Shown: positions 20,501-48,970 of the stretch, in pieces | Layout of the letters: every line of letters begins with the position of its first letter | How positions within the stretch are numbered: position 1 is the stretch's first letter | Source: Candidatus Binatia bacterium | GTDB lineage: Bacteria; Desulfobacterota; Binatia; HRBIN30 | NCBI GenBank assembly: GCA_937925685.1 | Contig: CALAMI010000007.1 | Location: 62,001-126,000 of the forward strand | DNA: 64,000 nt | Reading direction: 5' to 3' | Position numbers and translations under genes: made by a program | Notes under the pieces: model-generated | Seen by the model: only the letters and a program-made list of their open reading frames with translations | Told to the model about the DNA's origin: nothing | Databases searched by the model: none

Positions 20501-20689
20501 GGCAACGTCGTTCGGCAAGGGAATTTCAGGCAGGGGTTTGTGGAAGAAATCCATTTTCACCGTGGTCCGCGCCGGTTGCGACGTGGCGATGCCTTCAGAC
20601 TCGGAAAGCGAGCAGCCGCTCAACAAGGCGGCGAATCCCACCGACGCCCACCAGAACAAAACCAAATGTGCACTCGTTTTCTTCCTCAT
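17510..20689 (-). CDS. Large lipoprotein with alpha/beta-hydrolase (lipase-like) domain
   Basis: The product has 1059 residues. A lipoprotein signal ends in ALLSGCS, so the mature protein is lipid-anchored. The N-terminal half resembles the N-terminal domain of bacterial virulence-factor lipases, with Ig-like strands and a DVNGNGILDPGEDTDADG calcium-loop-like segment. The alpha/beta-hydrolase core has an oxyanion region (LSHGYTGSRF) and a nucleophile elbow (GASLGG, about residue 620), with further DxDxDG-type loops (DQNGDGVKDSG, DFDGDGHVDVGG) and a late histidine region. Probable role: surface or periplasmic esterase/lipase. The ATG at 20689 has GAGGAG eight bases upstream; a GTG at 20704 overlaps the previous stop. 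It follows the barrel gene directly, forming a two-gene operon. Confidence 0.8.
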   Translation of the reverse strand: MRKKTSAHLVLFWWASVGFAALLSGCSLSESEGIATSQPARTTVKMDFFHKPLPEIPLPNDVATVVDPTSVTGRRINASMVAPTGFERLTRQKIDELDGWGVFQPITIPFTGPIDVESLLAGHRDPLYETDNDVIYLINIDRRSPEFGRVHHLDVGNGNYPIVLERRDNYWDNDPRAGTVSILFDEVDEDVNGNGILDPGEDTDADGVLDKPNYLPGSNPPPSDLKARVDNFMSFYERETNTLVLRPLVPLRERTTYAVVVTRRLRDIRGEPVGSPYPTIHHTSQTEALRALPEVLPTGLTLADVAFAFTFTTQSVQSHWRAVREGLYGYGPQRHLAHEFPAKVEALLPLRDANRFPNSKRLYLLYGENWLEAARPLATTFLGLNPNSEQYRQLATSLEYVDYFVIGTYRSPQLFPRNDEQGNFLNLNLQAWPPDLDRIPAPAREEIVYFTLAVPRKEVSARKDGRPAPVAILSHGYTGSRFALMQFAGFFARHGLAAIAIDGPSHGIGLTSEQEALAKQLLGVMGYGAAVDATLSDRAFDQNGDGVKDSGADFWSAYLFHTRDVVRQFMLDYSQLVRILRSWNGRRLWDFDLGEDGVPDIAGDFDGDGHVDVGGNAPIVMTGASLGGIMSMLMGGAEPQITAVAPIAGGGGYVDIGMRTVQGGALEAFVLRMMGPLYVGTLDPATGRMLMQTVVVDLNDLGRRPLGSVEGVRVGDTLVAENLTNGARGCGLVLPPGRVRASLESDRGDLVRLVFYAGPVLVPGTKCEVQPGSSVRAVLDRFGVDFTYQAQPFRAGEPLRALEDGLGRPRNTPEIRRLGSIGQLVVDPADPVVFAPHLLLEALEFPLTRERTGSHALVVTSQGDMNVPSSSAVTFARAAGIVPFLEVDPRYGRSANQMLIDTYTVEAVDNLARFTDATGKGVHLDVENFSGGDDIWGPQYPRLHPPLRLGFDRWDRLGGRSAAIFPLTRDTGEHGFSLPGAMTDDFRAKCARECPIPGSGDPCGCRTQTTYDIGNFLLNMIARFLVTNGMELSADLCQSRNDCPGYLPPPPRRDVATLP

Positions 20690-20700
20690 GACCGCACTCC

Positions 20701-31415: not shown

Positions 31416-34154
31416 CTACCAGTCCAACCAGGGCTTAAAAGTCAGCACTGCGCCGCGGGCAAAGGTCATCGGTCCGTCACGGCTCAGCAAGGCGCCTCGT
31501 ACCAAGGCCCATCGTCCGACGGCTAGCTTCTTCTCCGTGAAAATAGTGCCCTCGACAACGCTCTCATTACCCAGCTTTGCCTTGCCGCCAACGAGCACGA
31601 TTACTCGTACTCGCTCCGCAGCAGACCCGCGCGGTCCGGGCGCGAAGCCCTCTGTTACGATGCGACCACCTGATCCAACCAGCAAGTTCCTCGCTATACG
31701 GAGAACGATCGTCTGCGTTGCAGTATTGCCGCGTACCGTGAGCACAACGTTAGGCTGCAGTTTCAACGAAGCGAAGTCGACAACTGGGTTGGACCCCAAC
31801 GTCGTGACATCGAGCAACTGATCTGCGGACAGCGTGACGTCACCCACGCTCAAGTCCGCGGGAGGGGCGAGAAGGTTTTGTCTGCGGGTGTGCGCCGCAT
31901 CACCCGCGTTAACGCACTCCGTCAACGTTAAGTTCATACCAGAAGAATCGGTCCCACCCAAGCACACAGCTCCGGGCTTCAAACTGATCGGCGTGCCACT
32001 CGCTACGCATTGGTGATTCACTACGGCTGCGGCGCCAAGCCGGACACGGCGCATGGCAATTACGTGCCCATCGACGATACCCATCCGCGCGACAGCCACA
32101 ACTCGGCCGCAGACGCTTCCACCCTGCACCGCCGCGCCCAAACCCACTTTAACCCGCGCCGGGCTGTTCCCCGGAGCAGCGAGGACCGAGAACCCACTCA
32201 CGGAGTTTGTCGGCGGCAGGGGGACGTTTTCCACCAAGGTTCCGACGCCCTTCCCGAAAATCCCGTCCACCGTTGCAGTACTAGAACCAGCCACCAGCGC
32301 ATCTCCAGCCATGGCAAGGCTGTGTACGGCTCTTCGCGGCAGGTACACCACCTGGTTGGCGGTAGCGCCGGATTGCCAGCCGCCAGAGGGCTTTTGGTAA
32401 AGGTAAAGGGCACCGGTGTCGCCTTCACCCCCTGGGCCACCGTGCTCAGCGCCGGCGACGAGCCGATCTCCCTGTATCGCGATCACCGTTGCAAAAAGAT
32501 CCGATCGGTCCGCTGCTGCAGGGGTAAGCGAGGCCGTTTCGAACATGTCTCCGCCCCATCCACCCACTGGTTTGACGAAAATAAAGGCTCGCCCGACGTC
32601 TTCCTCGACCCCACGGGGCTTGTAAGGGGCACCGGCAACGACAACGTCGCCGTCAGCCGACACGGACCTGCCCAGTTGATCATAGGGTTGTGCATCCGAG
32701 GCGATGAGGCGGGCGTCGGGCGTGGCCGTGTTTGTCCAACCGCCTGGCGGCTTGGCAAACAGATATACGGCTCCCGCGAAGCTACGCCCCGCGGCCGCAG
32801 TTTACGGCGCCCCCACAGCGATCGTGTCCCCAAACAAAGCAACCGCATGCCCAAAACTGTCTCGCCCAGTGCCGGAAGGCGGGCGAAGAACGGCGGTTTC
32901 GGTGAGCGTTCCCGACCAACCGAACGGTGGCTTTTCGAACACGTACACCGCTCCCGAGCGTCCTCCCAGCGGAGAATCGTGGATTGCCCCCACAACGACT
33001 CTGTCCTCTTGGATGTCGACCGAATATCCAAAGTAGTCGTAACTGGCACCATCGGACGGCAGCAGCTTGGCTGTTTCCGTGAGCGTTCGCGACCAACCAC
33101 CAGGCGGGCGTCGAAAAACGTACACAGCCCCTTGACAGTCGTTGCTGCCTTCCCGGCGACTGGGATCGGCAACTACGACCACCTCGCCCGAGATGGCCAC
33201 AGCTCGTCCGAAGCCCGAATTCGTGCCAGCCGAAGCCTGGTCGGAGGCGATCAACCTCGCGTTAAAGCTTGTCGTGCTCGACCAACCCGAAGGCGGTTTC
33301 AGGAACACATACGCAGCCCTCTCACCAGTCGCACCGCCCGGAGCTCCGAGCACGACCGTATCACCGTCAATCGCGACTGCCCAACTCACCGAGCGCGCAT
33401 TGTACGCAGTCGTCAGCTCAGCTTTTTCTACCAACGGATCGATCACAATCGGGTAAGTGGCCCCCTGATCGTCAACCTCGATCCGCAGTCTATGCCCCGC
33501 CCGGGAGACTCGTGCAGGCAACCTACGACCCGAAAAATCCCTCACCGCCAAGGGGCCGTAAACTAACGCCTCTCTGCCATCGGGGCTGAAAAAGGTCACG
33601 GAGTCACCGCTCGAGTCCGTTTGCCAGAGAGCCACACCGGTGTCGACCTCGAATTCCACGATAGCGCGGTCGCTCAGGGTAGGCCGCCGAGCTAGGGTTA
33701 CGCCATGTTGAAGCCCAAGCGGGCCATTCACCCACCACTCCGCGGCAACCCCATGGCGATATTCGACGCGATTCTCCATCACGAGCGGCAGCGGCTGGCT
33801 AACGCCCCCGCCACCCATCGAGCTTTCCGGCGTCGGTTCGGTAGGCTCACGCCAAGCAAGCCAGACCACCAGGCGGCCAGAACGGAGGGAAACACGGTCC
33901 GAGCCGAACCATGCCGCAATTGCGCCACGAGCGCGAACCATTCCGAGCCGATCCACCTCTTGGATGTGGTAGGTGGCATCCTCTGCACCCGCAATGGTGT
34001 TGGCCGTTAGCTCTGACTGGAGAGGCAAGCAGTGTCCAGGCCCCGGAACCGCCTGCGCCGGATTTCCTCCAGTCACGACCAGAAGGGGCAAGAGTCCGCC
34101 TGCCGGAACCGCCAGCCACCAAACTGTGCCGTGCGTCACCTTGGTGTCTCGCAT
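31416..34154 (-). pseudogene. Secreted FG-GAP repeat protein interrupted by one in-frame TAA
   Basis: One continuous frame would encode about 912 residues, but a TAA at 32802-32804 (codon 451) splits it into 450 and 461 residues. Upstream of the stop: a signal peptide (VPAGGLLPLLVVTGG), a domain ending YPIVIDPLV, then FG-GAP repeats (AIDGDTVVLGAPGG, AISGEVVVVADPSR, DIQEDRVVVGAIHD, ALFGDTIAVGAP). Immediately after the stop the repeat continues in the same frame (GRSFAGAVYLFAKPPGGW, SADGDVVVAGAPYKP). The C-terminus has a beta-rich domain (VIVLVGGKAKLGNESVVEG). The repeats would form a calcium-binding propeller at the surface. GAGGAGG precedes the ATG at 34154. It could be a real nonsense mutation, a readthrough codon or an assembly error; a GTG at 32663 could restart translation. 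Confidence 0.75.
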
Positions 34155-34707
34155 CACCGGCCTCCTCGGCGGCTACGCCAAGCCACGAGAGGCAACCGCG
34201 CCCTCCACGACCGCTTTGCCGCCCGCACGCTGCTGCGGGAAAGCCAGTCAGAGGCCATGCGAACTGTCGACGTTAGTCACTCAAGAGTCAAATCAATTAG
34301 ATGTCGCCTCCTCTCACGCAACCGCCACACTGACGATCAAGTGTCAGCCGAGTTGCACTTAGAAGGGGGAGAAGAGGGGGACGAATGCAATTCCGCTTCA
34401 CGCATGATCTTCAGCTTTGAACCGGTAACTTCCCAGGAGGAAGGTGTGTGCCGCTACCTCTCCACGGCGATTTCGATGACGCCGGCTACGGAACCGACGG
34501 CGGCGGGCTCTAGCGCCGGCCTGCGTGTATGCGACCCTTGGCGCCAGCCAACGCGCGGATAGCGCGCGCCCAGAGGAGGCGAAAGGCACCCCGGGTTCAA
34601 CGTCGGGGCAAAATGAGCCACGGAAGCAGCCGACGCTTACAGGCCCGCCTTTGGTTTTTCTCCCACCGAGCAAAGGAGGGACGTGGACAAAGGCAGAGCA
34701 TGAGAAC
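34155..34707. other. Divergent intergenic region upstream of the DUF2298 cluster
   Basis: About 550 bases separating the FG-GAP gene from the membrane glycosylation cluster. It must hold promoters for both directions. The longest in-frame extension of the DUF2298 gene reaches 34525 but is charged and of low quality. No repeat or RNA was recognised. Confidence 0.4.
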
Positions 34708-36882
34708 ATGCGCGGTTGCAAAGATGGAAAGGAACGGATAGCGTGCCGGCTCTGGGTCGGCGGTACGATGGGTGCGCTAGTCTCGTGGTGGCTGTTGCTA
34801 GAAGTGCTAGGGCTCGTCGGCCTACCACTTGCGGCGCGGCTGTTCGGCCAAGCCTCGATATACAGTTACGTCTTTTCCAAGATCATCAGCGTCGTTTCCA
34901 TCACGTACGTGGCGTGGGTCCTTGGCCACACGGGCCTTGCGTACGGGGTTGCTTTGCAATTGGGGGTCATTGTGTTTGCAGTCGGCAACGTTGTGCTTGC
35001 CTGGCGGGACCGTGGTTCCCTGCGGCAGTGGCTGGCTCACGGCGGAGTGAAGGAAGCGATGCGGGCTGACCTTTGGTGGACAGCAGCGTTTCTCTTCTTC
35101 GCTTGGCAGCGAGCGTTGCACCCGCACATCGTCGACCAAGAAAAGTACATGGACTTTGCCTTTTTCAACACTCTCATCCGCACCCAGCAAATGCCCCCGG
35201 AAGATCCGTGGATGTCGGGATTGCCGTTCAACTACTACTATTTCGGTTACTTGATGAACGCCAACCTGGCACGCCTGTTGCCCTGGCCGAGCCCGGTCAC
35301 TTACAACTTATGTGTAGCGACTCTAGGCGGGTTAGTGTTCGCACAGCTTGCCGCCATCGGCTGGCAGCTCACGCAGCGGCACGCGGTGGCATGGCTTACG
35401 GGTGGGTTCGGTGTGCTGTTGGGCAATCTTGACGGGCTGTGGCAAGTGCTGGAAAAGGCCAGCCTCGTCGACATGGATTATTTCCGCTCCACGCGCATCG
35501 TGGGGCGAGACGCCACGATCAACGAATTTCCTTACTTTACGGTCATTCACGGCGACCTGCACCCGCACTTGTCGGTGATGCCCATAAGCGTCTTGCTCAT
35601 CGGTTGGCTGTTGCTTCGTCGCCCATGGAGCGACATTGCTGTTCGTGGCGTGACCACCGTTGGCGAGTTGCTCCGGATTTTGGTGCTGGGCGCGGTCTTT
35701 GGTGCCATGGTCGCCACCAGTCCTTGGGAATTGCCTGTTGGCATCATGGTGACCTTTCTTTTGCTGCAGCGGGAATTGCCACTTCGACCCCTAGTGGCGT
35801 GGCCACGAGTGCGTGCCGGGCTCATTGCCCTTGGCGTACTAGTGGTCGGCTATGTGGCGTTTCTGCCGTTTTACCTTCATTTCCAAGCACCTCAAGGTGG
35901 AGTGGGATTTAAACTGGCAACAACCAAGCTTCATGAGTTCCTCACGGTGTTCGGCGCTCTGCTGATCTTCCCGGGGTGGTATTTCGTCCAGCAGCTCCGC
36001 GGGCAGCCGAGGGTGCAGCAGTATGGGCAGCTCATCGTGGCCTTGTTCTCGCTCGCTCTTGTCATTGGCGTGCTTACGGGCAAAGCCGTGGCCGTTCTCA
36101 TGGGAGCCTTCGTCCTCGCTGCACTGTGGGTAAGTTACGGAAGCGAAACCGCCGAAACCCGCGCCCCTGTGCTTCTTGCGCTTTGCGCCAGTGTGGCGCT
36201 TCTCGCTTGCGAACTGGTGTACATCAAAGACCCATACGGCGAGCGTTTGTACCGCATGAACACCGTTTTCAAACTCTACTTGCAATCGTGGTTTCTTCTC
36301 GCCATCGCCTCGCCCTGGTGTGCCTGGCGCCTTTGGCAGACCGGGCGAAGCCTGGCTTGGGGGGTTCGTCCGGCCGTCGCGGCAGCAGTGCTCCTCGTCG
36401 CAGCCACGGCTTGTTATCCTCTCGGGGTCACGGCAACGCGCTTGAGGTATCTTGACCGCGGCCTGACACTCGATGGCAACTTCTACCTGCGGCAGCAGCA
36501 TCCAGACGACTTCGCCGCAATCGAATGGATGCGTGCCAACGTAACCGACCTGCCGGTCATCCTCGAAGCCAGCGGGAACCCATACTCTTACTACGCGCGG
36601 TTTTCGTCGAACACCGGGCTACCGACGGTGATGGGTTGGGCCAACCACGAAGGTTTGTGGCGCAGTCACGAACCGTCCGTCGAAGCACGGCGACGGGAGG
36701 TTGCCTCGATATATTCCGCAGCCAAGCTCGAGGAAGTACAGCCGCTGCTCGAGCGCTACCGAGTGCGTTACATCGTCGTCGGAGAACTGGAGCGGCGCGA
36801 CTTCAAGCCCGAAAGTCTGGAGAAATTTCGGCAGCTGCGGGTGGCTTTCTCGCAGGGGAGTACGACGATTTACGAACGATGA
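34708..36882 (+). CDS. DUF2298 polytopic membrane protein
   Basis: The product has 724 residues and more than ten hydrophobic segments. Hallmarks of the DUF2298 (Chlor_Arch_YYY) family are EKYMDFAFFNTLIRTQQMPP, PFNYYYFGYL, ATINEFPYFTVIHGDLHPHL and NTVFKLYLQSWFLLAIASP. The loops rich in D, H, E and Y resemble the extracytoplasmic active regions of GT-C glycosyltransferases. A soluble C-terminal part follows (VILEASGNPYSYYARFSSNTG). The function is not established; a lipid-linked sugar transferase is the natural guess. The start is uncertain: ATG at 34708 or 34768, neither with a strong ribosome site. The gene overlaps the glycosyltransferase gene by four bases (ATGA). Confidence 0.82.
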   Translation: MRGCKDGKERIACRLWVGGTMGALVSWWLLLEVLGLVGLPLAARLFGQASIYSYVFSKIISVVSITYVAWVLGHTGLAYGVALQLGVIVFAVGNVVLAWRDRGSLRQWLAHGGVKEAMRADLWWTAAFLFFAWQRALHPHIVDQEKYMDFAFFNTLIRTQQMPPEDPWMSGLPFNYYYFGYLMNANLARLLPWPSPVTYNLCVATLGGLVFAQLAAIGWQLTQRHAVAWLTGGFGVLLGNLDGLWQVLEKASLVDMDYFRSTRIVGRDATINEFPYFTVIHGDLHPHLSVMPISVLLIGWLLLRRPWSDIAVRGVTTVGELLRILVLGAVFGAMVATSPWELPVGIMVTFLLLQRELPLRPLVAWPRVRAGLIALGVLVVGYVAFLPFYLHFQAPQGGVGFKLATTKLHEFLTVFGALLIFPGWYFVQQLRGQPRVQQYGQLIVALFSLALVIGVLTGKAVAVLMGAFVLAALWVSYGSETAETRAPVLLALCASVALLACELVYIKDPYGERLYRMNTVFKLYLQSWFLLAIASPWCAWRLWQTGRSLAWGVRPAVAAAVLLVAATACYPLGVTATRLRYLDRGLTLDGNFYLRQQHPDDFAAIEWMRANVTDLPVILEASGNPYSYYARFSSNTGLPTVMGWANHEGLWRSHEPSVEARRREVASIYSAAKLEEVQPLLERYRVRYIVVGELERRDFKPESLEKFRQLRVAFSQGSTTIYER

Positions 36883-38060
36883 GGCCGCTGCGGGTTCTGG
36901 TAGCGCTCACGTACCACCGGCCGGACGTGAGCGGGCTAACGATTTACGCAGGGCGCCTCGTGCAACAGTTAGTCTGGCGTGGGCACTGCGTCACCCGATT
37001 CACGTCTCGCTACCAGGCTCGCTTACTTCCGCGAGAGCCTCTCCCCCGTATCGAGACCGTTCGTGTCCCCATATGCCGCAAAGTGAGCAAGGGCATGATC
37101 ATGCCATGGCTTCCCGTGTATGCATGGCTGCTCCCCCGCAAACACGGAATGGTGAACGTTCCCATGCACGAGCTCGCGGCGGTTCTCCTGGCCCTTTGTA
37201 CTCGATTGCTCGGCAAACCCGCTTTTTTACCGTACCAGTGCGATTTGCAGCTTCCCGCTAGGTGGGTGCATCGCATCGACGATGCCGCTTTAATTCCCTT
37301 GAACACGGGGGCGGCGAAGTTCGCCGCCTACGTTGTCGCCAGCAGCCAAGACGACGCGCTCTGTCGTCCGTTCCTGAGCCGCTACTTTCGTAAACTACGC
37401 GCGATTCCTCCGTTGATCCAAGTCGCCGCGGAAGACCCGCATTGGACCGCCCAGTTACAAGCGCATGCGATGAGCTCCCCGTGCGTTGGGTTCGCTGCCC
37501 GGTTCACTGAAGACAAGGGCGTGGGGTACATGCTTGCGGCTATGCCCACGATCATCGAGAAAGCACCAGAGAGTCGAGCCGCTTCCACCGGCGCCTACAA
37601 GGAGACGATTGGCGAGGAAGCGTGTTGGCAAAGATTGCAGCCGCTGCTCGAGCGTCACCGCCGACGACTCCTGTTTCTCGCGCTCCTTCCCGGTCAGGCA
37701 AGGCCAAGCTTCTATCGGGGATGTGACATCGTTGTAATCACCCCCCTCAACTCGAGCGAAACGTTCGGGATGGTGCAGGTCAAGGCGAGGTCGTGCGGCA
37801 CCCCGGTCGTAGCAACGAACCTCCTAGACGTGTTCGAGGTGGTACGGCGAACAGGAATGGGAGAAATCGTTCCCCGGAGGAGCAGCCCGGCGCTAGCCGA
37901 AGCAATTGTACGCGTGCTACGGAATCGCGCGTTTTATGTCCAGCCACAGAACGATGTTGAACTCGTGTTTCCCCCTAAAAGCTCGGCACGGGCGTACGCA
38001 GGCATGTTCCATCTCTTGCGCGATAGCAAACGGGGAGGGCGTTGTGATCCGGGCTTGTAG
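36879..38060 (+). CDS. Glycosyltransferase family 4-like protein with altered EX7E motif
   Basis: The product has 393 residues. N-terminal Rossmann domain: VLVALTYHRPDVSGLTIYAG and a donor/acceptor cleft. C-terminal domain: CVGFAARFTEDKGVGYML, then DIVVITPLNSSETFGMVQVKARSCGTPVV. The usual GT4 EX7E motif has Glu294 but Lys302 (codon AAG) in place of the second Glu, which normally contacts the donor nucleotide sugar. The GxG of the second fold is also unusual (AASTGAYKE). The enzyme may have lost or altered catalysis, or may be a divergent family. The ATG overlaps the stop of the DUF2298 gene, so expression is coupled. The next cluster gene starts 96 bases after it. Confidence 0.8.
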   Translation: MRPLRVLVALTYHRPDVSGLTIYAGRLVQQLVWRGHCVTRFTSRYQARLLPREPLPRIETVRVPICRKVSKGMIMPWLPVYAWLLPRKHGMVNVPMHELAAVLLALCTRLLGKPAFLPYQCDLQLPARWVHRIDDAALIPLNTGAAKFAAYVVASSQDDALCRPFLSRYFRKLRAIPPLIQVAAEDPHWTAQLQAHAMSSPCVGFAARFTEDKGVGYMLAAMPTIIEKAPESRAASTGAYKETIGEEACWQRLQPLLERHRRRLLFLALLPGQARPSFYRGCDIVVITPLNSSETFGMVQVKARSCGTPVVATNLLDVFEVVRRTGMGEIVPRRSSPALAEAIVRVLRNRAFYVQPQNDVELVFPPKSSARAYAGMFHLLRDSKRGGRCDPGL

Positions 38061-38156
38061 CGGTGCCGCTTTTACACCCGCGGTTTTCCGTGCGGGGTCG
38101 TGGTGGTTAATGGGGCCACACAGCCTTGCCGAGGATGGCGGTGTGGAGGCGAGTGC

Positions 38157-41100
38157 ATGACGACAGCGAACAACACTTGGTGGAAGCGGCCTCGGCTGTG
38201 GGCTGCAGCAGTGGTAGTCTTTGCCGCCTTCGTTCGGTTTCCCGCCATCGAATGGGATCATCGGCACTTTTTCCACCCAGATGAGCGGGCCGTAGCGTTT
38301 GCCATCCAACGCATTTCCTTCGCCCGGCTTGTTCTCGATCCCGACTGGTTCGCCTATGGCACGCTGCCGATCTATTTGAACCGTGCCCTGGCGGAGCTTC
38401 TCAGCACCATCGATCCCAGAGCGACCACCTATGATGCCATCATCGTAAACGGCCGGCGCCTGACAGCATTCTTGGGTGCTCTTACGGTATTGCTTCTTTT
38501 CCGCCTTGGCACGCGGATGTACGACCCCGTGGTGGGTAGCGTAGCTGGCTTTTTGTTAGCCGGAGCTGTGCTGCATGTTCAGAATTCGCGGTTCCTGACC
38601 GTGGACGTGCCCCTCACTTTCTTTGTGCTTTTGGCTCTTAGCCAACTCGTGGCAGCGGTGGAAAGAGGTTCATGGAGGCACTTCCTTCTAGCCGGAGTCG
38701 CCATCGGCACGGCCATGGCAACCAAATTCAGCGCAGCCCCATTGTTTTTGCCCTTGGCTGTGGCTGGGGTCCTGCGCTGGCGGCAAGAGGGCCGGTTCAC
38801 CGTCAATGCAGCCAAAGTTGCGGGCGCGGTCATCTTTGCAGCCGGGGCCTTTGCACTGACCCAGCCTTATGCCCTGCTGAACTTCTCGCGGTACGCGCAC
38901 GACATCCTCGAGCAAAGCAACATGGTGCGCAACGCCGGGTTGTTCCCTTACACGAACCAATACATGCACACGCCGAAGTACGTGTACGAGCTCAGCCAAC
39001 TCGTCTTGTGGTGCATGGCGCCAGCGCTGGGACTCGTATCTATTTGGGCAGCAGCGCTGCGCCCTGCTTATGCGTGGCGCACGGGCCGGGCGGCCGAGTG
39101 GGTGCTGCTTTCGTGGGTGGTGCCGTTTTTTGTCGTCACCGGTTGGTTCGAGGTGAAATTCCCTCGCTATCTCCTGCCGATCTATCCCATCCTTTGCCTA
39201 TGGGCAGCGGAGTGGCTCGTTCGGCAGTACCGCAGCGGCATCAGGTGGCGACGCTTCTGGCTTCCCGCCGTCCTTCTTGGCAACACGGCTGCGCTCTTTG
39301 CCTTCCTCTCCATCTATACGCGACCACACACGGTGCGTGCCGCCTCGGAGTGGTTTTATAAGAACATTCCCGCTGGCTCCAAGGTGCTCTCTCAGGACTG
39401 GGATGAGGGCTTTCCCCTCCCCGTACCCGGGTTCAGTCCTAACCGCTACCAAATTGTAGCTTTCAGTTACTACGAGCCAGACAGCCCGGGCAAGATCCAA
39501 CGACTCGGTCGAGAACTGGCAAACAGCGACTACATCGTTTTCCAGACTAAGCGGATTTACGGTGCCGTAACCCGTGCGCCCGAAAAATTCCCCCTCACCA
39601 CGAATTATTTCTACCAGCTGTTTGCCGGTGACCTCGGGTATACCTTGCTGCAAGAGTTTGCCTCGCGGCCGTCGTTTCTCGGATGGGAAGTGCCCGACGA
39701 ACTCGCGGACGAGTCGTTTTCGGTTTACGACCATCCCAAAGTTTTAATTTTCCAAAACACTGGCCGCTTGACCGCCGAGGAGCTTATTGACCGTATCCTT
39801 CATCGGCCGCCGTCTCGACCACTGACGCGTAACGACCTCTTGCTCGCCCGTCCGAGCGCAGAGGGAGTGATCGCTGCTGCAGGGGGTGAACGGATTCGGT
39901 CGAGTGTACTGGCTCTCGTCTTGTTCGGGACGTTGGTCGAACTCCTGGGGCTGAGCCTTTACCCGCTGGTGCGTCACTGGTTCGTCCGGCCTGGAACGCT
40001 TGGGCTGGCGAAACCGCTCGCAGTTCTCCTCTTTGCGTACGCCGCTTGGTTTCTCGCCGGGTGGCGGATTGCTCCTTTCTCCCAAGGGACGCTCGGTATT
40101 GTTGTCGTCGCCTTCCTCATCGTCGGGGCCTTTGCCTGGCGGCTTCACGGACGCGTACGGATGTCGGCGGGCGAGATTATTGCCACGGAGAGCGTTTTCT
40201 GGGGGACCTTCATGTTTTTCTTGCTGGTGCGGGCCTTCAATCCGGAAATTTACTGGGGCGAGAAGCCAATGGACTTTTCCTTTCTCAATGTTCTTTACCG
40301 CACGACGTACCTTCCGCCCCCTGAGCCTTGGTTTGCTGGCTCTCCTTTGCACTACAGTTACTTCGGCTACTTCATGGTGGCTTCCCTGGGGAAGGCGTTA
40401 GCCATCGACCCAGCGATAACGTACAATCTCGGCATTGCGCTCGTCGCTGGGCTGACGGCCGTGGCAGTCTTCGCTGCCGGGACGATGGTCAGCGACCGCT
40501 GGGGAGTGGGGCTATTGGCCGCCTTCTTGGCGGTGATGATTGGCAATCTAGCTGGCCCTCGTGAGCTTTTAGGAGCACACCGCTCAATCAATTTCGATTA
40601 TTACTGGGCCACCTCGCGCGTCATTCGCGACACGATCAACGAGTTTCCCTTTTGGAGCTTTCTTTTCGCCGACCTGCACGCACACGTCATGGTGATGCCC
40701 CTGACCGTGACTTTTGTTGCCCTCATGGTGCGGTGGGTCCGCAGTCGAGTGATGAGCCCCCCGGAACCGCTGCCGACGAGCAATGCGGTGACATTGATTG
40801 TGTTGCTAGCGCTCACCTTAGGAGCGATCACCACCACGAACACGTGGAGCATGCCCACCTACCTCCTCCTGCTTGGATACATGCTTACGACGATCTGGCT
40901 GACGGAAAGCGAGCACCGTGGTGTTGCCGGCTACGTCTTCGGCTTTCTCGTTCGGGTGGTTTTGGTGGTCGTAATCGTGGGCGGCCTCGGGTACCTCCTG
41001 TTCTGGCCCTACTGGGCCACATTCGTGGCTCCGGAACGGAACTTCGGTTGGGAGCGCCTTCCGCCGTGGCGCCTTGTGCGTCCGCTCGATCTCTTCACCA

Positions 41101-42935
41101 TCTTTGGAACGTTTTTCGTAGCCATCGTTCCCTTTCTGTGGCGGCAGTGGGGCGAACTGTTGCAGGCTCCGAGCGGCGGCTGGAGTCGCTTCGGCGTGGC
41201 CGGCTGGATCGTGATCGGGCTGTTGAGCGTGCTTGGCTTTTTCGTTTCCACGCGCGTCGGGATGGCGGTGCTGTTCCTTCTCGCGCTGCAACTTCTTCTG
41301 GCAACCCGAACGCGCCGCGAATGGCGGATCGCGCTGGCGCTGGCGAGTTTCGGCCTTGCGATCCCGGCAGGCACCGATCTCGTGTACCTCTGGGACCGCA
41401 TGAACACGATTTTCAAGTTTTACTTAGAAGCCTGGTTTTTCTTCGCTCTCAGTGCGGCAGCTATGGCTGTCGGACTGTGGACCGGAGGCGTGCCTCTGGG
41501 GCCGTTCCGGCGGGTGTGGCAAGGGTCTTTTGTCCTTGCCATCGCCGTTGGACTGTTTACCGCGGCTACAGACGTGCTGGGGATTTTGCGCACCAACCGG
41601 GTACCTACGCCAAAACCGACTCTCGATGGGATGGCGTACCTCCGGCTCAAAGCCCCCGACGAGTACGCAGCCATCGATTGGCTCAACCGCAACGTCAAAG
41701 GGATTCCTTACCTCTTAGAAGCTCACGGAGATGCGTACCAAGAGTACACCCGGATCGCCATGAACACGGGCTTACCCACAGTACTCGGATGGGCATACCA
41801 CGTGTATCAACGGGCACATTCCTGGAACGAAATCAATCGCCGCAAAGCGGACGTCGCCCTAGCCTATACAACAGAAGACAAAAACGTGCTCACGGAAATC
41901 CTCGATCGTTACAAAGTGAGTTTGATTTACGTCGGAGCCCTTGAACGGCGGACGTACGCTGGGGGTAACTTGGAGCGGTTTCGTTCTTGGAGCGATATTT
42001 TGACTCCCGTATACCAAAACCCTGGGGTGACGATCTTTGCGGTCAACGGGCGCTTCACCGGATCGCTGGCAGTGACCACAATCGAGGAGGTTATGCCGGT
42101 GGGAGCACCGGAGGCGGAGGTTCCCCGTGCACCTGACGCCCCGGGAATTCTGTCACAGCCTCGCGGCATAGCCGTCGCGCCCGATGGCATCGTGGTGGTC
42201 TGCGACTTCGGCAACAACCGCATGCAGGTCTTCCAGCGTGACCTTTCCTTCGTCCGAGCCTTCGGGCGGCGGGGAGAGCTGCCAGGGCAGTTTAAAGAGC
42301 CCTGTGGCGTGGCCATCGGGCCCGGGGGTAACATTTACGTTGCCGACACCTGGAACGGCCGAATCCAGGTATTCGACTCGGAAGGTAAGTACTTGCGCGA
42401 GTTCGGTGAGGGACTCTACGGGCCGCGGGGGATTACCGTGGATGCTCTAGGCCACGTCTTCCTCGCAGACACGGGAAACAACCGTGTTGTCCGCTACTCC
42501 TCGCGCGGGGAGCAAGAACTCGAGTGGGGCAAGAAGGGCAACGGCGCGGGAGAGTTCTGGGAGCCAACAGGGATTGTGGTGGACCAAACGGGCACCGTGT
42601 TCGTGGCCGACAATGGCAATGGCCGGGTGCAGTTTTTCCATCGCGACGGCAAGTTTCTCGGCAGCTTCCCCGTTCCAGGGTGGGAGAGCAAAGTGTTTTC
42701 CGAGCCCCATCTGGCCCTCGATCCTCGCGGCAACCTTTGCTTGACCGTTCCTGGGGAGAAAGAAGTCCGTTGCTACGACCGCACCGGGAAGCTTCTGCGC
42801 ACGATCCGAGGGGATGGCTCAGCCGGGGTTATTTTTGATACCCCGATGGGAATTGCGTTCGATGCTGCCGCTGGGGAACTGGTTATTTCCGACTTGGAAA
42901 ACCGGCTGGTCCGTATTCGATATGGAGGCAAGTAA
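38157..42935 (+). CDS. Giant fusion: GT39-like glycosyltransferase + DUF2298 + NHL propeller
   Basis: The product has 1592 residues in three parts. (1) Residues about 1-580: PMT/ArnT-like GT-C transferase with FFHPDERAV (D42-E43) in the first loop and SRFLTVDVPLTFF. (2) About 580-1310: a second GT-C-like DUF2298 domain with EKPMDFSFLNVLYRTTYLPP, PLHYSYFGYF, TINEFPFWSFLFADLHAHV and NTIFKFYLEAWFFF. (3) About 1325-1592: an NHL-type beta-propeller with repeats PRGIAVAPDGIVVV, GNIYVADTWNGRIQVF, GHVFLADTGNNRVVRY and GTVFVADNGNGRVQFF. The DUF2298 part is homologous to the gene at 34708. GGAGG precedes the ATG. The propeller could bind polymer or protein. Such a fusion is unusual and suggests coupled steps of one pathway. 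The function is inferred only. Confidence 0.85.
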   Translation: MTTANNTWWKRPRLWAAAVVVFAAFVRFPAIEWDHRHFFHPDERAVAFAIQRISFARLVLDPDWFAYGTLPIYLNRALAELLSTIDPRATTYDAIIVNGRRLTAFLGALTVLLLFRLGTRMYDPVVGSVAGFLLAGAVLHVQNSRFLTVDVPLTFFVLLALSQLVAAVERGSWRHFLLAGVAIGTAMATKFSAAPLFLPLAVAGVLRWRQEGRFTVNAAKVAGAVIFAAGAFALTQPYALLNFSRYAHDILEQSNMVRNAGLFPYTNQYMHTPKYVYELSQLVLWCMAPALGLVSIWAAALRPAYAWRTGRAAEWVLLSWVVPFFVVTGWFEVKFPRYLLPIYPILCLWAAEWLVRQYRSGIRWRRFWLPAVLLGNTAALFAFLSIYTRPHTVRAASEWFYKNIPAGSKVLSQDWDEGFPLPVPGFSPNRYQIVAFSYYEPDSPGKIQRLGRELANSDYIVFQTKRIYGAVTRAPEKFPLTTNYFYQLFAGDLGYTLLQEFASRPSFLGWEVPDELADESFSVYDHPKVLIFQNTGRLTAEELIDRILHRPPSRPLTRNDLLLARPSAEGVIAAAGGERIRSSVLALVLFGTLVELLGLSLYPLVRHWFVRPGTLGLAKPLAVLLFAYAAWFLAGWRIAPFSQGTLGIVVVAFLIVGAFAWRLHGRVRMSAGEIIATESVFWGTFMFFLLVRAFNPEIYWGEKPMDFSFLNVLYRTTYLPPPEPWFAGSPLHYSYFGYFMVASLGKALAIDPAITYNLGIALVAGLTAVAVFAAGTMVSDRWGVGLLAAFLAVMIGNLAGPRELLGAHRSINFDYYWATSRVIRDTINEFPFWSFLFADLHAHVMVMPLTVTFVALMVRWVRSRVMSPPEPLPTSNAVTLIVLLALTLGAITTTNTWSMPTYLLLLGYMLTTIWLTESEHRGVAGYVFGFLVRVVLVVVIVGGLGYLLFWPYWATFVAPERNFGWERLPPWRLVRPLDLFTIFGTFFVAIVPFLWRQWGELLQAPSGGWSRFGVAGWIVIGLLSVLGFFVSTRVGMAVLFLLALQLLLATRTRREWRIALALASFGLAIPAGTDLVYLWDRMNTIFKFYLEAWFFFALSAAAMAVGLWTGGVPLGPFRRVWQGSFVLAIAVGLFTAATDVLGILRTNRVPTPKPTLDGMAYLRLKAPDEYAAIDWLNRNVKGIPYLLEAHGDAYQEYTRIAMNTGLPTVLGWAYHVYQRAHSWNEINRRKADVALAYTTEDKNVLTEILDRYKVSLIYVGALERRTYAGGNLERFRSWSDILTPVYQNPGVTIFAVNGRFTGSLAVTTIEEVMPVGAPEAEVPRAPDAPGILSQPRGIAVAPDGIVVVCDFGNNRMQVFQRDLSFVRAFGRRGELPGQFKEPCGVAIGPGGNIYVADTWNGRIQVFDSEGKYLREFGEGLYGPRGITVDALGHVFLADTGNNRVVRYSSRGEQELEWGKKGNGAGEFWEPTGIVVDQTGTVFVADNGNGRVQFFHRDGKFLGSFPVPGWESKVFSEPHLALDPRGNLCLTVPGEKEVRCYDRTGKLLRTIRGDGSAGVIFDTPMGIAFDAAAGELVISDLENRLVRIRYGGK

Positions 42936-45543
42936 CCGCGATCGGCCATCGGCTCTAGAAATTGCGCTTCTCTTGGCCAGCCTCGCTGCTGCCGGCGTGG
43001 GCCAGTACTGTTTGGCTTACAAGTGGCAAGTCAACTATGCGGCGGTGCTTTGGCCGCTAGCGCTTGTCCTCTTCGTGGCCGCTCTGAGTTCGACCCCGCG
43101 CGAGCATCGAGAGCTCCCGAGGCTCTCGGGGGAATCTGTAAGCCGCCCATGGGAGGCCATGCTGGCCACGGCGGTGATCGCATTGGGAATTTTTTTCAAA
43201 GTACACAAACTGCAAGAATTTCCGCCCGGGCTCAATCACGATGCTGCATGGGAAGGGCAGTATGCACTCGCCATCTTGAACGGAATCCCTTACACACCAT
43301 TCGTCTCGGCAGCCTGGGGCCGAGAGACGCTTACCTTTTACCTTCGTGCTCCCTTCGTTTGGTGGCTTGGTAACGTACCCCTTGCGGTGTATTTGCCGTC
43401 GGTCATCGCTGGCAGCATCCTGTTGCCTTTCCTTTACTGGTGGGCCCGCACGATGTTTGGCCGCACCACGGCCATCCTGACCACGGCGCTGTTGGGTGTC
43501 TCGGGCTGGAGTCTCGTCTTTAGCCGCACGGGTTGGCGTTCTGATTTCCAGCCCTTGTTCACCGTTCTCACTTGTTGTTTCTTTTGGCGTGGCCTGGAGA
43601 GACGGCGGCCGCTGCACTTCGCCCTTGCTGGGGTGTCCCTGGCAGCAACAGTGAATACGTACAATGCGGGTCAGGTGCTGCCGCTACTGTTTCTCATCTG
43701 GATCCCTTTGTTCGCCCTCCAAGGCTGGACGCTCCAAGGATTCTTGCGGCGCTACGGTTGGGCACTGGGCAGCGGAGCAGTCGCGTTTCTTGTCGCCGTA
43801 GCCCCCCTCGCGTGGTACGCCCTGAACAACTGGGAAAAGTTCTTTGGCCGGCAAACGTACTTGCTGCAACAATGGTCTTTCGCCCGTTCCCTTGGGGCAA
43901 CCGTACTCATGTTTCACTACTGGGCAAACGGGGACGACTTTTTCGTGAACACGCCCGGTTTGGAGTCGGTGGCGGCGGTTTTCTTCCCGTTTGGACTGCT
44001 GTGGTGCTGTGCCGCCGTGCGAGACCCACGGGCGCAGTTCTTGCTTGTGGGGTTTGCGGTCGGATTGTTACCAGGGTTGCTGAGCAGGCCCAACATGAAC
44101 CGGGACATCGGCACCATGCCGTTTGTCTACTTTTTCGCCGCTCTTGGCACTTTGTTCTGTGCGCGACAGCTCGCTCGCCTTGCTCCGCGGCAGTGGCGTC
44201 GAGCGTTTATCGCTTCTGCAGCTGCGGTTATCGTCGGCGCTTCGGCATGGGCCACCTATGCGCAGTACCTCGGTCCCTCACGGCGCTTAGTTTGGGGTTA
44301 CTACCCGGAAACGACTGTTCTGGGGCAATATTTGGCAACGCTTGTTCCCTCCTATCGCATTTGGGTTCTCGGCGGGCACTTTCCGATGGAAACTCTCGAG
44401 TACCTCACCTACCGGGAGGGGGACCCATTCAAACGGAGCTTCACCCAACACGAAGATCCGGCCCGAATTTTTCGTGAGCCCTTACCGGACCCGAGCTCAT
44501 CCGGACTCGCGTTCGTCTTCCCCGATGAAACCGTAGCCATGCTGGTCATGGCCGAGTTGCGCAGTCGCTACCCGAAACACGAAATTGTCAACCTCCGCTA
44601 TCCTACAAACGAAAGCGGCAGGATCTTTGCGCGCGTGCTCTTGGTTCCGCCGACTGAAACAGTCCCCACGGTCGATACCGCTATGGTTCGACAGCGAGAT
44701 CCTACACGCACTCCGCTCAGCCTGGCGTCACCTACTCCAACCGAGGTTCCCTCTTTAGCCGAACCCCGGGGCGTGGCGGTGTTCGATGATGGCACGATTG
44801 TCGTGAGCGATTTTGGTCACGACCGCTTGGTTTGGTTCGACTCTGCGCTGCGGCGCCAACGTGCTCTCGGCCAAGCTGGGCACGAGCCAGGGCAATTCCG
44901 CCAGCCCAGCGGACTAGCGATTGGCCCGGGCAACGAACTGTACGTTTGCGACACGTGGAATCACCGCATTCAAGTGCTGACCAAGTCTGGAGAGTATCGG
45001 CGGCAGTACCTAGCAAACTTTTTTTCTCCTCGGGGAGTGGCGGTGGCGCGTGACGGGACCGTATACGTAGCCGACAGCGGGAACAATCGGGTAGTCGTCT
45101 TACGCGCCGACGGAGAAGTTGTGCAGAGTTGGGATGGAAGCGCTGGCGGATCGCCATTGCGCGAGCCCGTGGGCATTGCCGTGGACGACAGGCGCGGCGT
45201 TGTTTTCGTAACCGACAATGGGCAAGCCAAGGTCAGGATCTTTAGTAGCTCGGGCGAAAGCCTGGGAAGCTTTGCCCTCGAGGGGATCAGTTTGCAGGCG
45301 TTATCAGAGCCGCAACTTTCTTGGGCATCTCAAGGCGGTTTGTGGGTCAACGTAACGCATCGTCACGAAGTCCGTTTGTACAAGAAAACCGGGGATTTGG
45401 CGCAAGCCATTCCTGTAATTTCCGAGGAGGGCAAGGAGAAACTCTTACCCATGGGTGTCGCGGAAGACTACCGGCGCAAACGTCTCCTCGTGACGACGCT
45501 ACAAGGCGACCTACTCTCGATTCCCCTGGGCGGGAAACCTTAG
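42922..45543 (+). CDS. GT39-like membrane glycosyltransferase fused to NHL propeller
   Basis: The product has 873 residues. The N-terminal half is a polytopic PMT-type domain with PPGLNHDAAWEGQYALAILNG in the first loop (the usual Asp-Glu pair is Asp107-Ala108, with Glu111 nearby) and a run of hydrophobic helices. Residues about 620-873 form a propeller like that of the preceding gene: EPRGVAVFDDGTIVVSDFG, ELYVCDTWNHRIQVL, TVYVADSGNNRVVVL and VVFVTDNGQAKVRIF. The ATG overlaps the end of the preceding gene by 14 bases, giving coupled translation. Two consecutive genes ending in similar propellers imply duplication or domain sharing within the locus. The gene ends about 80 bases from the convergent thiE. 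Confidence 0.85.
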   Translation: MEASNRDRPSALEIALLLASLAAAGVGQYCLAYKWQVNYAAVLWPLALVLFVAALSSTPREHRELPRLSGESVSRPWEAMLATAVIALGIFFKVHKLQEFPPGLNHDAAWEGQYALAILNGIPYTPFVSAAWGRETLTFYLRAPFVWWLGNVPLAVYLPSVIAGSILLPFLYWWARTMFGRTTAILTTALLGVSGWSLVFSRTGWRSDFQPLFTVLTCCFFWRGLERRRPLHFALAGVSLAATVNTYNAGQVLPLLFLIWIPLFALQGWTLQGFLRRYGWALGSGAVAFLVAVAPLAWYALNNWEKFFGRQTYLLQQWSFARSLGATVLMFHYWANGDDFFVNTPGLESVAAVFFPFGLLWCCAAVRDPRAQFLLVGFAVGLLPGLLSRPNMNRDIGTMPFVYFFAALGTLFCARQLARLAPRQWRRAFIASAAAVIVGASAWATYAQYLGPSRRLVWGYYPETTVLGQYLATLVPSYRIWVLGGHFPMETLEYLTYREGDPFKRSFTQHEDPARIFREPLPDPSSSGLAFVFPDETVAMLVMAELRSRYPKHEIVNLRYPTNESGRIFARVLLVPPTETVPTVDTAMVRQRDPTRTPLSLASPTPTEVPSLAEPRGVAVFDDGTIVVSDFGHDRLVWFDSALRRQRALGQAGHEPGQFRQPSGLAIGPGNELYVCDTWNHRIQVLTKSGEYRRQYLANFFSPRGVAVARDGTVYVADSGNNRVVVLRADGEVVQSWDGSAGGSPLREPVGIAVDDRRGVVFVTDNGQAKVRIFSSSGESLGSFALEGISLQALSEPQLSWASQGGLWVNVTHRHEVRLYKKTGDLAQAIPVISEEGKEKLLPMGVAEDYRRKRLLVTTLQGDLLSIPLGGKP

Positions 45544-45622: not shown

Positions 45623-46270
45623 TTATCTGCTCGATAGGCGTGCCAGCAATTGCCGGACAAACACATGCGGTTGGTCGGCTCGAGCGATGCTACTGATCAT
45701 TGCCACCGCGTCGGCACCAGCCTCCAAAACGGCCTTTGCGTTGGATTCTGTAATCCCGCCAATCGCCACGATCGGCAGCCGTACGGCCGCGCGAATCGTT
45801 CGCAAACCCTCCAAGCCGAGGACAGGGTCGGGGTCTCGTTTGCTGGCGGTCGGGAAGATCGGCCCTACACCGATGTAATCCACCAGCGCACCGCGTTCGG
45901 CTTCGAGTGCTTGTTCCAGGTTGTGGGTCGACCAGCCGATGATGCGCGGCGGCGAAAACCACGGGCGAACGACCTCCGGGTAGAGGTCTTCCTGGCCGAG
46001 GTGAACACCTGCGGCATCCACCAATATCGCTATGTCAGCCCGATCATTGATCACCAGGCTCACACCGCGGGCAGAGCAGATTCGTGCAACTTCGCTCGCT
46101 AGAGAAACGAAACTGGCTGTGTCGAGTGACTTGGCTCGCAATTGTAGTAAGGGCGCCCCGGCGTCCACAATGGCACGGGCCAAGCGAAGGCAATCTCCAT
46201 GTGGTGCCGCGTCGTAGTCGGCAATCGGGTAAACAGGTGACGGAAAGTGAAATCCAGCACTGCGCCTCAC
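45623..46270 (-). CDS. thiE: Thiamine-phosphate synthase
   Basis: ThiE joins HMP pyrophosphate and THZ phosphate to give thiamine phosphate. The 215 residues contain LLQLRAKS, VINDRADIA, GVHLGQEDL, YIGVGPIFPTASK and VAIGGITESNAKAVLEAGADAVAMIS, the complete TIM-barrel set. The GTG start overlaps the stop of the NtrC-type regulator gene (GTGA), so thiE is translated with the two-component pair. No other thiamine gene is adjacent, and no TPP riboswitch was seen. The coupling to a regulator is unusual and may only reflect compact gene arrangement. Confidence 0.93.
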   Translation of the reverse strand: MRRSAGFHFPSPVYPIADYDAAPHGDCLRLARAIVDAGAPLLQLRAKSLDTASFVSLASEVARICSARGVSLVINDRADIAILVDAAGVHLGQEDLYPEVVRPWFSPPRIIGWSTHNLEQALEAERGALVDYIGVGPIFPTASKRDPDPVLGLEGLRTIRAAVRLPIVAIGGITESNAKAVLEAGADAVAMISSIARADQPHVFVRQLLARLSSR

Positions 46271-47727
46271 GAGCCGCCTTCTTCCGTGGATGGACGGGAC
46301 ACGATACCGAACATGTGCATTTTTTTGTGCAGCGTGTTGCGATTAATCCCCAGCAAGGCTGCAGCACGAAGTTGATTCCCCCCAGTGCGTTCCAGGGCGT
46401 ACTCGATCAGAGGACGCTCCACCCGTTGCATCACCCAAGCGTAAACATTGCGCGGCGAAACTTCGGGATCCGACCCGAGGAGCGACTCGACTGCTTGGCG
46501 TATGGCAGCCTCGATCGTTATGGCCTCGGTCGATTTCTTCCCCGGGCCGGACTCGGCAAGCACCAAGTCTTGGGGCATCACGAATGGACCAGGGGCGAGC
46601 ACCGCAGCTCGCACCAGCGTATTCTCAAGCTCGCGGACATTGCCGGGCCAGGAATGCTGGAGCAGTTTCTCCATAGCTTCGTCCGAGATTCCAGAAACGC
46701 GTCCGCCAAGCTCTCGGTTAATCTTGGCGAGAAAGTAACGCACGAGGTCTGGAATGTCGGCGCGGCGCTGGCGAAGCGGGGGGACGTGAATCGGCACCAC
46801 CGCCAGCCGAAAATACAGGTCTTCGCGAAAACGTCCTTCGCGTACGGCGCGCTCGAGGTTCTGATTCGTTGCGGCAATGAGGCGGACGTCGACTTTTACC
46901 ACTTCGCGCCCGCCCACACGGGTGAGTTCTCTTTCCTGGACCACGCGCAGGAGCTTGGCTTGCAGCTCGAGCGGCATGTCACCCACTTCGTCGAGAAACA
47001 ATGTCCCGCTATTGGCCACTTCAAATACCCCAAGGCGCTGCTCCGTGGCTCCGGTAAACGCCCCCCGCTCGTGACCAAACAGTTCACTCTCCAACAAGTC
47101 ACGAGGAACAGCCGAACAGTTCATCGCAACAAAGGGTCCACTCCACCGGCGCGAATGAGCGTGGATTGCGCGGGCGATCAGTTCCTTTCCCGTACCACTC
47201 TCCCCTTGGATCAGCACGGTCGCCTCAGTGGGTGCCACACGTCCAATCGTTTTGAAGATTTCTTGCATCACTGGCGTGCGCCCGACGATTTCCACCCCCA
47301 GCTCGAAGCGTTTGCGTTGGTCACGCTCCAAGCGTTCCAACTCCGCGCTTTGCCGGCGCATCTCCAGCGCACGACGCACGAGGATACGAACTTCGTCGAG
47401 ATCGAATGGCTTGGTAATGTAATCATAAGCACCGCGCTTCATCGCCTCGATCGCATTGGCCATGGTGTTTTGGGCCGTGACGATGATCACCGAGGTGTCA
47501 CATCCGGACTCGGCCAGGCGGGAGAGCAGCTCGAGGCCATCGAGTCCCGGCATACGGATATCGACCAGGGCAACTTCGAAATTGCCGCTTGTCAGCTTGC
47601 TCCACGCCTCCTCGCCGTTCTCCGCCGTCTCTACCACCCAGCCCAGATCGGCAAGCGCCTGGCGGAGCACCCAGCGTATGGATTCTTCGTCGTCTGCAAT
47701 CAGTACACGAGCCAGTGGAGTTGTCAT
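46267..47727 (-). CDS. Sigma-54-dependent NtrC-family response regulator
   Basis: The product has 486 residues in three domains. Receiver: phosphoacceptor Asp56 ([13 protein letters not shown]), acidic DDE pocket and the TKPF lysine. AAA+: Walker [10 protein letters not shown], the sigma-54 contact loop GAFTGA, Walker [12 protein letters not shown], arginine finger [10 protein letters not shown]-terminal Fis-type helix-turn-helix: [22 protein letters not shown]. It activates RNA polymerase with sigma-54 at -24/-12 promoters after phosphorylation by the partner kinase. It overlaps the kinase gene (ATGA) upstream and thiE downstream. Targets are unknown; no -24/-12 site was searched exhaustively. 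Confidence 0.94.
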
Positions 47728-48869
47728 TTCCGCCCGTCAACCGGTAGATGCACGGTCACTACCGCGCCGTGCGGCTCGCGGTTACCCAAGTGAATGTCAC
47801 CGCCCAGAGTCGCCACAATCCTCTGGCAAATCGCCAAACCGAGGCCGCTGCCCTTAGGCTTCAAGGTAAAAAAAGGCTCGAAGGCATGCTCCAAGGCTGC
47901 TGGGGAAAAACCGGGTCCGGTGTCGGCAATTTCCACGCGGAGGAATTTACCGGGGCCGCTACCCTTCACGATATGGTAATCCGTTTCCATCCTGGTCACG
48001 ATGGTCACGCGGCCGCCTTGTTCCATCGCGTCGCAGGCGTTGTGAATCAAATTGAGAAACAGTTGAGTCAACTGATCTGCATCGCTGCGCAAGTCGGGAA
48101 GGCTCGGATCGATCTCCAAGACGGTTGCGACGCCGCGGTCCTCGAGCTGAGGGCGGCACAAGCGCAAAACTTCATATAATACACGGTGAACGTTCACGAG
48201 TTCCATCTTCGGTTGGGCTGGTGCACCGAGGATTAACAATTGGTCGACGAGCCGGGCTAAACGGTCGGTCTCGCGGATCATGATCGAGGTATACTCGCGG
48301 ATTTCCTCGTTGTCGCGGCAGCGATCCGCCAGAAGCTGCGCGGCTCCGCGGATCCCGCCCAGGGGATTTTTGATTTCATGAGCCAAACCGGCGACGAGCC
48401 CACCGAGTCGTGCCAGCGTTTCGGTTCTCCGGACAGTTTGCTCGAGCTTGTGCTGGTACGTGAGGTCATGGAACACCAATGCCGTGCCTTCGATGGCACC
48501 AGTGCGTGACCACACGGGTGAGCAACTCACGCGCACCGGCAAAGAGCGCCCCGCACCGAGCTGGAGCATGGTTTCCCCGCACACCTGGCTTTGCGACGAC
48601 GTCAACGTGCGCTGCACCAGCTCCACGACCACGGGGGATGCAGCAAAAGCTTCCGCGACCGCTCGGCCACAGAGCTGTGATTCCGGCCAACCCGTGAGCT
48701 CTTGCGCCGCTGCATTGACGAACAAGACGCGGCCCTCGCGATCCGTGAGTACCACAGCTTCGCCCAAGCTCCCCAAAACATTTTCCAACATCGTGCCCGG
48801 ATACGCCTGCGGTGCGAATGCATTCGACGGATCAAAGGGTTCAAAGGTCACCACCACAAGGTAACACAT
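47724..48869 (-). CDS. PAS-domain histidine kinase, NtrB type
   Basis: The product has 381 residues. A single PAS domain (AVVLTDREGRVLFVNAAAQELTGW) is followed by a HisKA dimerisation helix with the phosphorylated His in GLAHEIKNPLGGIRGAA. The HATPase domain has the N-box (FLNLIHNACDAM), G1 (ADTGPGFSP), F-box (FEPFFTLK) and G2 (GSGLGLAI). There is no transmembrane segment, so it is cytoplasmic like NtrB/GlnL. It forms a coupled pair with the downstream regulator (4-base overlap). The ATG at 48869 is chosen without a clear ribosome site; starts nine residues upstream or a GTG a few codons in are possible. Confidence 0.92.
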   Translation of the reverse strand: MCYLVVVTFEPFDPSNAFAPQAYPGTMLENVLGSLGEAVVLTDREGRVLFVNAAAQELTGWPESQLCGRAVAEAFAASPVVVELVQRTLTSSQSQVCGETMLQLGAGRSLPVRVSCSPVWSRTGAIEGTALVFHDLTYQHKLEQTVRRTETLARLGGLVAGLAHEIKNPLGGIRGAAQLLADRCRDNEEIREYTSIMIRETDRLARLVDQLLILGAPAQPKMELVNVHRVLYEVLRLCRPQLEDRGVATVLEIDPSLPDLRSDADQLTQLFLNLIHNACDAMEQGGRVTIVTRMETDYHIVKGSGPGKFLRVEIADTGPGFSPAALEHAFEPFFTLKPKGSGLGLAICQRIVATLGGDIHLGNREPHGAVVTVHLPVDGRK

Positions 48870-48970
48870 GGGCCAAGGGGCAACCAAGTTGCCCACACAC
48901 CTTCCGACGGCGACGAGCGCGAGGCCGACGATTCCTGCGACTTTTCAGTTGTGCTAACAGCCCCCAGGTG

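Follow-up and report, generated by a model that had tools for sequence, protein, structure and literature searches.

A conserved bacterial linkage group of DUF2298 and PMT_2 membrane proteins and its propeller-bearing Agl23-family partner

Main finding

Four adjoining genes of a Candidatus Binatia bacterium encode membrane proteins with a probable role in attaching sugars at the external face of the cell membrane. They were found in a stretch of 64,000 nucleotides, which was analyzed as a whole and is referred to as the window in the following. Two of the proteins carry the domain DUF2298, confidently predicted to adopt a GT-C fold and to end in an AglB-like domain, and the genes constitute a conserved linkage group, whose order and fusion recur in related genomes. 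The constant partner of DUF2298 is a protein of the Agl23 family with a C-terminal NHL propeller, encoded outside the window. With moderate confidence, we interpret this ensemble as an extracytoplasmic glycan-assembly system built from the Agl23 protein, GT-C proteins, and shared propellers. The cluster is new in terms of domain architecture and composition, while the pairing of Agl23 with DUF2298 is one of known, poorly understood families.

Domain architecture of the gene cluster

All four genes are located on the plus strand, spanning positions 34708-45543. The first one, g1 (34708-36882, 724 aa), encodes a stand-alone DUF2298/TIGR03662 membrane protein, exceeding both the Pfam cut-off (DUF2298, E 1e-92, 312.1 bits, cut-off 27.8) and the curated NCBIfam cut-off (TIGR03662, 513.9 bits, cut-off 300.25). 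It is followed by g2 (36879-38060, 393 aa), a GT4 glycosyltransferase (Pfam Glyco_trans_1_4, E 2e-16), and by g3 (38157-42935, 1592 aa), a chain consisting of a GT39-like PMT_2 module (residues 1-585; Pfam, E 6e-15), a TIGR03662 module (residues 586-1297; 473.5 bits, cut-off 300.25; DUF2298, E 5e-88, 296.6 bits, cut-off 27.8), and an NHL propeller (about residues 1325-1592; E 2e-35). The last gene, g4 (42922-45543, 873 aa), combines a PMT_2 membrane domain (Pfam, E 7e-7) with an NHL propeller (E 4e-30). A first-pass annotation of the sequence had noted two proteins with the DUF2298 signature and two similar propeller ends, and both observations are confirmed by these profile scores. Its description of a chain of about 1590 residues joining two GT-C-like domains and a propeller agrees in length and in the predicted fold of the DUF2298 module, while for the PMT_2 modules in g3 and g4 a GT-C fold is suggested by their Pfam matches over the cut-off only.

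The overlaps described previously are present as well, with four bases (ATGA) shared by g1 and g2 and 14 bases by g3 and g4; since g2 and g3 are separated by 96 bases, overlap is found at two of the three junctions. In a search of the genome assembly (3.7 Mb, 95% complete), no DUF2298 match was detected beyond g1 and g3. With the only two matches of the assembly lying close together in this cluster, chance adjacency was rejected. Known forms of TIGR03662 (Chlor_Arch_YYY), as described by NCBIfam, are stand-alone proteins and proteins with two copies plus TPR. The curated cut-off of this family is exceeded by g1 and by the central module of g3, but g3 differs from those forms in that its single copy is preceded by a PMT_2 domain and followed by an NHL propeller.

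The surroundings of the cluster comprise a pair of a sigma-54 response regulator and a PAS histidine kinase directly downstream and convergent with it (46267-48896, minus strand), as well as two FG-GAP_2 repeat proteins, one of which has an additional ice-binding-like domain (31416-34157, minus strand). Two large open frames (17510-22206, minus strand), which encode 1064 and 501 aa and share a few bases, gave no Pfam match at E 0.001.

Predicted fold and invariant residues of DUF2298

An AlphaFold model of g1 (pLDDT 86.7, pTM 0.91) was compared with experimental structures by two aligners. Foldseek ranked the C-mannosyltransferase DPY19 first (E 1e-6), whereas the second aligner returned STT3 8agc (Z 17.3), ALG12 (16.6), AglB 3waj (15.9), ArnT (15.4), and Pmt4 (15.1); Z values less than one unit apart are to be read as ties, and helical proteins may score high by chance. 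A Z of at least 8 was reached by 57 of 996 aligned chains, and the 50 matches listed are, judged by their titles, oligosaccharyltransferases, other GT-C glycosyltransferases, and GPI-transamidase subunits. Residues 592-724 match the globular domain of AfAglB-S2 (3vu0) with a Z of 11.1 and an rmsd of 2.7 Å over 111 residues at 22% identity. The first-pass reading depended on a GT-C fold and on linkage of the domains in relatives; the g1 model matches GT-C structures, and the domains are linked in the genomes compared below.

On sequence level, searches of the PDB gave no match for either the DUF2298 profile (up to E 1) or the PMT_2-DUF2298 profile (up to E 0.1), and comparing DUF2298 with bacterial STT3-like proteins profile against profile yielded nothing (probability 0.2%). 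The kinship of DUF2298 to STT3 is hence drawn from predicted structure only.

Across 105 DUF2298 domains from several phyla, the positions tabulated (g1 numbering) include E145, W168, Y176, E273, D283, H285, H287, N518, K522, W644, and H647 as invariant in all 105, in stand-alone and fused copies alike; position D149 is Asp in 103 domains and Glu in two. According to a home-made topology script, the E145-D149 cluster comes after a predicted membrane helix at the outer face, in the place occupied by the catalytic acid of GT-C enzymes. The residues D283, H285, and H287 form a D-x-H-x-H motif, which we take to resemble the D-x-H metal ligands of AfAglB and from which we infer, by analogy, a putative metal site. 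In g4, an NHD motif is invariant in all nine aligned sequences.

This combination of fold and motif leads to an alternative reading, in which DUF2298 would be a non-canonical oligosaccharyltransferase, transferring whole lipid-linked oligosaccharides onto proteins at an AglB/STT3-like metal-dependent site. It is favored by STT3 and AglB being among the best structural matches, C-terminal domain included, by the invariance of the D-x-H-x-H motif, and by the genome itself, where no STT3 match was obtained at E 0.001. Nevertheless, we consider it unlikely. DUF2298 resembles the STT3, AglB, and PglB oligosaccharyltransferases in its predicted fold (GT-C) and in its globular C-terminal domain. These enzymes contain a WWD motif (WWDYG in the STT3-like comparison set), however, which was not found among the consensus and invariant columns in the C-terminal portion of the DUF2298 alignments, and no similarity links the two at profile level. 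Furthermore, ArnT, PMT, ALG12, and DPY19, whose donors are lipid-phosphate sugars, score comparably with g1 (Z about 14-17), ALG12 and ArnT nearly as high as the oligosaccharyltransferases.

Concerning earlier work, no function for DUF2298 and no biochemistry of any DUF2298 protein was found in the literature searched, in which the terms TIGR03662, TIGR03663, PF10060, and the YYY name did not occur and a look for GT-C along with DUF names brought nothing on DUF2298. A Chloroflexi gene list puts a DUF2298 protein together with a PMT2/PA14 protein (PMC8756737).

Distribution of DUF2298 and its Agl23-family partner

Extension of the search to 58 genomes, the own genome being counted among them, revealed DUF2298 over the cut-off in 19, of which 16 (G000-G014 and G016) host full-length domains and three (G044, G046, and G057) partial or fragmentary matches. 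When named genomes were scanned with the PMT_2-DUF2298 part of g3, 77 loci were obtained. The complete PMT_2-DUF2298-NHL fusion was found in Binatota-type, Acidobacteriota, Omnitrophota, Schekmanbacteria, Tritonobacter, and Myxococcota records, while some fusions stop after DUF2298 and lack the propeller; in the Bacteriovoracia-type stretches retrieved, DUF2298 was seen alone. The domain also occurs in archaea, namely in the control genomes of Haloferax volcanii and Methanosarcina acetivorans. In a quick tree of the 105 domains, in which long branches and an uneven composition were flagged, six changes suffice for the labels fused and single, compared with about 35 in shuffles. Thus, fused and single DUF2298 look like two old lineages and not like the result of many separate fusions. 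A plasmid collection contributed two weak matches, one in Pseudobutyrivibrio and one, unannotated, in Halarchaeum. The Pseudobutyrivibrio gene (L227:7572-9827) resides among genes for an O-antigen ligase, a glycosyltransferase, and a sugar epimerase.

A genome search for NHL repeats identified a further gene 21 kb downstream of g4 and about 2.4 kb past the window end (G000:C7:128403-131219, equal to L148:8404-11220; minus strand, 939 aa). Its product, an Agl23/TIGR03663 protein with a C-terminal NHL propeller, reaches 277.4 bits (curated cut-off 126.25) and also matches PMT_2; the gene adjoins two GT2 genes and one for another PMT_2 protein. With 27.3 bits for g3 and 31.6 bits for g4, the N-terminal parts of these two proteins stay far below the TIGR03663 cut-off.

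NCBIfam already notes that the families TIGR03662 and TIGR03663 go together, and the genomes compared here reproduce this association. Within a set of 39 genomes of the own class, which leaves out the three class members with partial or fragmentary DUF2298, TIGR03663 exceeds its cut-off in exactly those 16 that host a full-length DUF2298; the remaining 23 gave no match over the cut-off. The Agl23 proteins of all 16 Binatota-type genomes carry NHL repeats, one of them being cut by a contig end. In a second set of 60 genomes, centered on an acidobacterium and counting G060, DUF2298 was found over the cut-off in 31 and TIGR03663 in the same 31, with both on one contig in 26 and within 2 kb in 24 of these. 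Such an exact match in two genome sets is striking, its counts being inflated by relatedness as related genomes are not independent. In two acidobacterial loci (L083 and L109), genes for DUF2298, GT4, PMT_2-DUF2298-NHL, Agl23-NHL, and a further NHL protein form one run, the large fused gene of L109 being split over two frames. Ten distant genomes were chosen from the 77 loci, and nine of them contain TIGR03663 over the cut-off; the tenth, a Myxococcota MAG with DUF2298, gave no such match.

The characterized member of the family is Agl23 of Haloarcula hispanica. The off-window propeller protein is alike in exceeding the TIGR03663 cut-off, but the Binatota-type members differ in their C-terminal propeller, present in 16 of 16. 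Purified HhAgl23 is reported to have moved a lipid-linked oligosaccharide across liposome membranes, its over-expression suppresses the loss of Rft1 in yeast, and the protein is regarded as a putative flippase for hexose-phosphate-dolichol (PMC11182771). In light of the Rft1 suppression, the partner of Agl23 may bear on the flipping and use of lipid-linked sugars. Flipping by the off-window Agl23-NHL protein is putative, being transferred through family membership only. The first-pass statement that no characterized system with this set of genes is known agrees with the literature searched as far as the entire set is concerned, yet a member of the Agl23 family, the Haloarcula protein, has been assayed as a flippase (PMC11182771). 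Agl23 is not mentioned in the main text of PMC8993221.

From the same association one could propose that DUF2298 and Agl23 jointly form a flippase or scramblase for lipid-linked sugars, with the GT-C fold serving transport and not transfer, as their co-occurrence, the liposome activity of HhAgl23, and the PMT_2 match of the Agl23 protein would allow. We judge this distinctly improbable, as the invariant acidic and His residues, whose series is predicted to start outside the membrane, resemble an active site, and g3 joins DUF2298 to a PMT_2 module with an HPDER motif invariant in 13 out of 13 aligned sequences.

Related propellers on three membrane proteins

In the proposed glycan-assembly system of Agl23 and GT-C proteins, related propellers are carried by g3, g4, and the Agl23 protein. 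The model of g4 (pLDDT 77.4, pTM 0.61, i.e., moderate) displays an NHL propeller with Z values of up to 33.6 (TRIM71 NHL) and 27.7 to 1rwi, and propellers fill the match list of a structure search with this model, supporting the propeller topology presumed in the first-pass annotation. The propellers of g3, g4, and the Agl23 protein match each other at E 1e-38 to 1e-67 and are closer mutually than to the three other NHL proteins of the genome that were compared. The best pairwise BLAST among the respective membrane parts is at E 0.006. Since all three match PMT_2, and g3 and g4 weakly match TIGR03663, these parts are to be considered distant relatives and not unrelated. Taken together, the sequences fit a picture in which three enzymes are served by a single propeller type. 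The topology script narrowly favored a C-terminus outside for g3, g4, and the Agl23 protein and gave a tie for g1.

An NHL propeller like that of g4 constitutes the extracellular domain of Mycobacterium PknD, whereas those described here sit on glycosyltransferase-like membrane domains. In comparison with the GT-C enzymes ArnT, PMT, ALG12, and DPY19, the PMT_2 Pfam matches of g3 and g4 are a point of likeness and their propellers a difference. No paper in the literature searched brought together NHL repeats, propellers, glycosyltransferases, and mannosyltransferases of bacteria.

Gene order in relatives and decay of the GT4 gene

Gene surroundings were compared in 15 relatives (G001-G014 and G016). 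The order g1-g2-g3 on a single strand was found in 13 of them, with g2 truncated in G002 and reduced to a remnant in G001; in G010 the pairs g1-g2 and g3-g4 are on separate contigs, and G016 has the fused DUF2298 copy only. Directly after g3, g4 is present in eight (G001-G003, G005-G008, and G010). A contig end cuts the locus of G004, and g4 is not adjacent in the five genomes of the family f4, nor in G016. In the longer locus L052, which is on the same contig as the locus of G013, a g4-like gene lies about 6 kb off on the opposite strand. The spacing varies as well, with g2-g3 gaps of about 6-10 kb in G008, G011, and G012 and a g1-g2 gap of about 3 kb in G004.

Alignment of g2 with 14 relatives revealed that the second Glu of EX7E, the motif of GT4 enzymes, is replaced by Lys. 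Inspection of the 14 other sequences showed the motif to be complete in 12; L048 carries Asp instead of the first Glu, and L032 has lost the stretch. The truncated copy of G002 misses about 50 residues around the second Glu. Within the genus, dN/dS of g2 is 0.40 (one pair) compared with 0.03-0.10 for g1, g3, and g4, ratios that are rough due to synonymous sites near saturation; in two other sets of relatives tested, the constraint on g2 is similar to that on its neighbors. Apparently, g2 is decaying in the genus of the window, and the GT4 of the window itself is probably either not required or in the course of being lost. A GT4-centered pathway was rejected for this genus.

The decay of the GT4 gene, the variable g2-g3 spacing, and the non-adjacent g4 in one family weaken the notion of a strict four-gene pathway. 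From the dedicated pathway proposed in the first-pass annotation, the conserved linkage and the glycosylation theme persist, while its restriction to these four genes does not, given the decaying GT4, the varying position of g4, and the Agl23-NHL gene outside the window. Going further and regarding the cluster as independent surface-polysaccharide genes merely sitting together, as the wide g2-g3 gaps in three relatives, the position of g4 in family f4, and the loss or decay of GT4 might suggest, is highly implausible in view of the g1-g2-g3 order in 13 of 15 relatives and the exact DUF2298-Agl23 co-occurrence in two genome sets.

Proposed extracytoplasmic glycan assembly

In the preferred reading as an extracytoplasmic glycan-assembly system, a cytoplasmic glycosyltransferase would charge a polyprenyl carrier, and the lipid-linked sugar would be brought to the other side of the membrane by the Agl23-family protein encoded 21 kb downstream. 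The GT-C modules, i.e., DUF2298 in g1 and g3 and PMT_2 in g3 and g4, would subsequently transfer or polymerize the sugar onto a surface acceptor, with their conserved residues acting on the outer face. The propellers of g3, g4, and the Agl23 protein might sit outside, holding the enzymes together or to a common acceptor. A more far-reaching version, which we regard as tentative and rather doubtful, would see in DUF2298 a new metal-dependent, oligosaccharyltransferase-like class obligately coupled to Agl23, with one propeller having been moved onto three enzymes to give a single assembly, widespread in bacteria and archaea.

The occurrence of related propellers on three membrane enzymes suggests a possible way in which such enzymes are physically organized. 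The GT-C prediction, the invariant candidate catalytic residues, and the exact pairing with Agl23 in two genome sets make DUF2298 a testable enzyme of surface-glycan assembly; thereby, a widespread family, found in several bacterial phyla and in archaea, now has a testable role.
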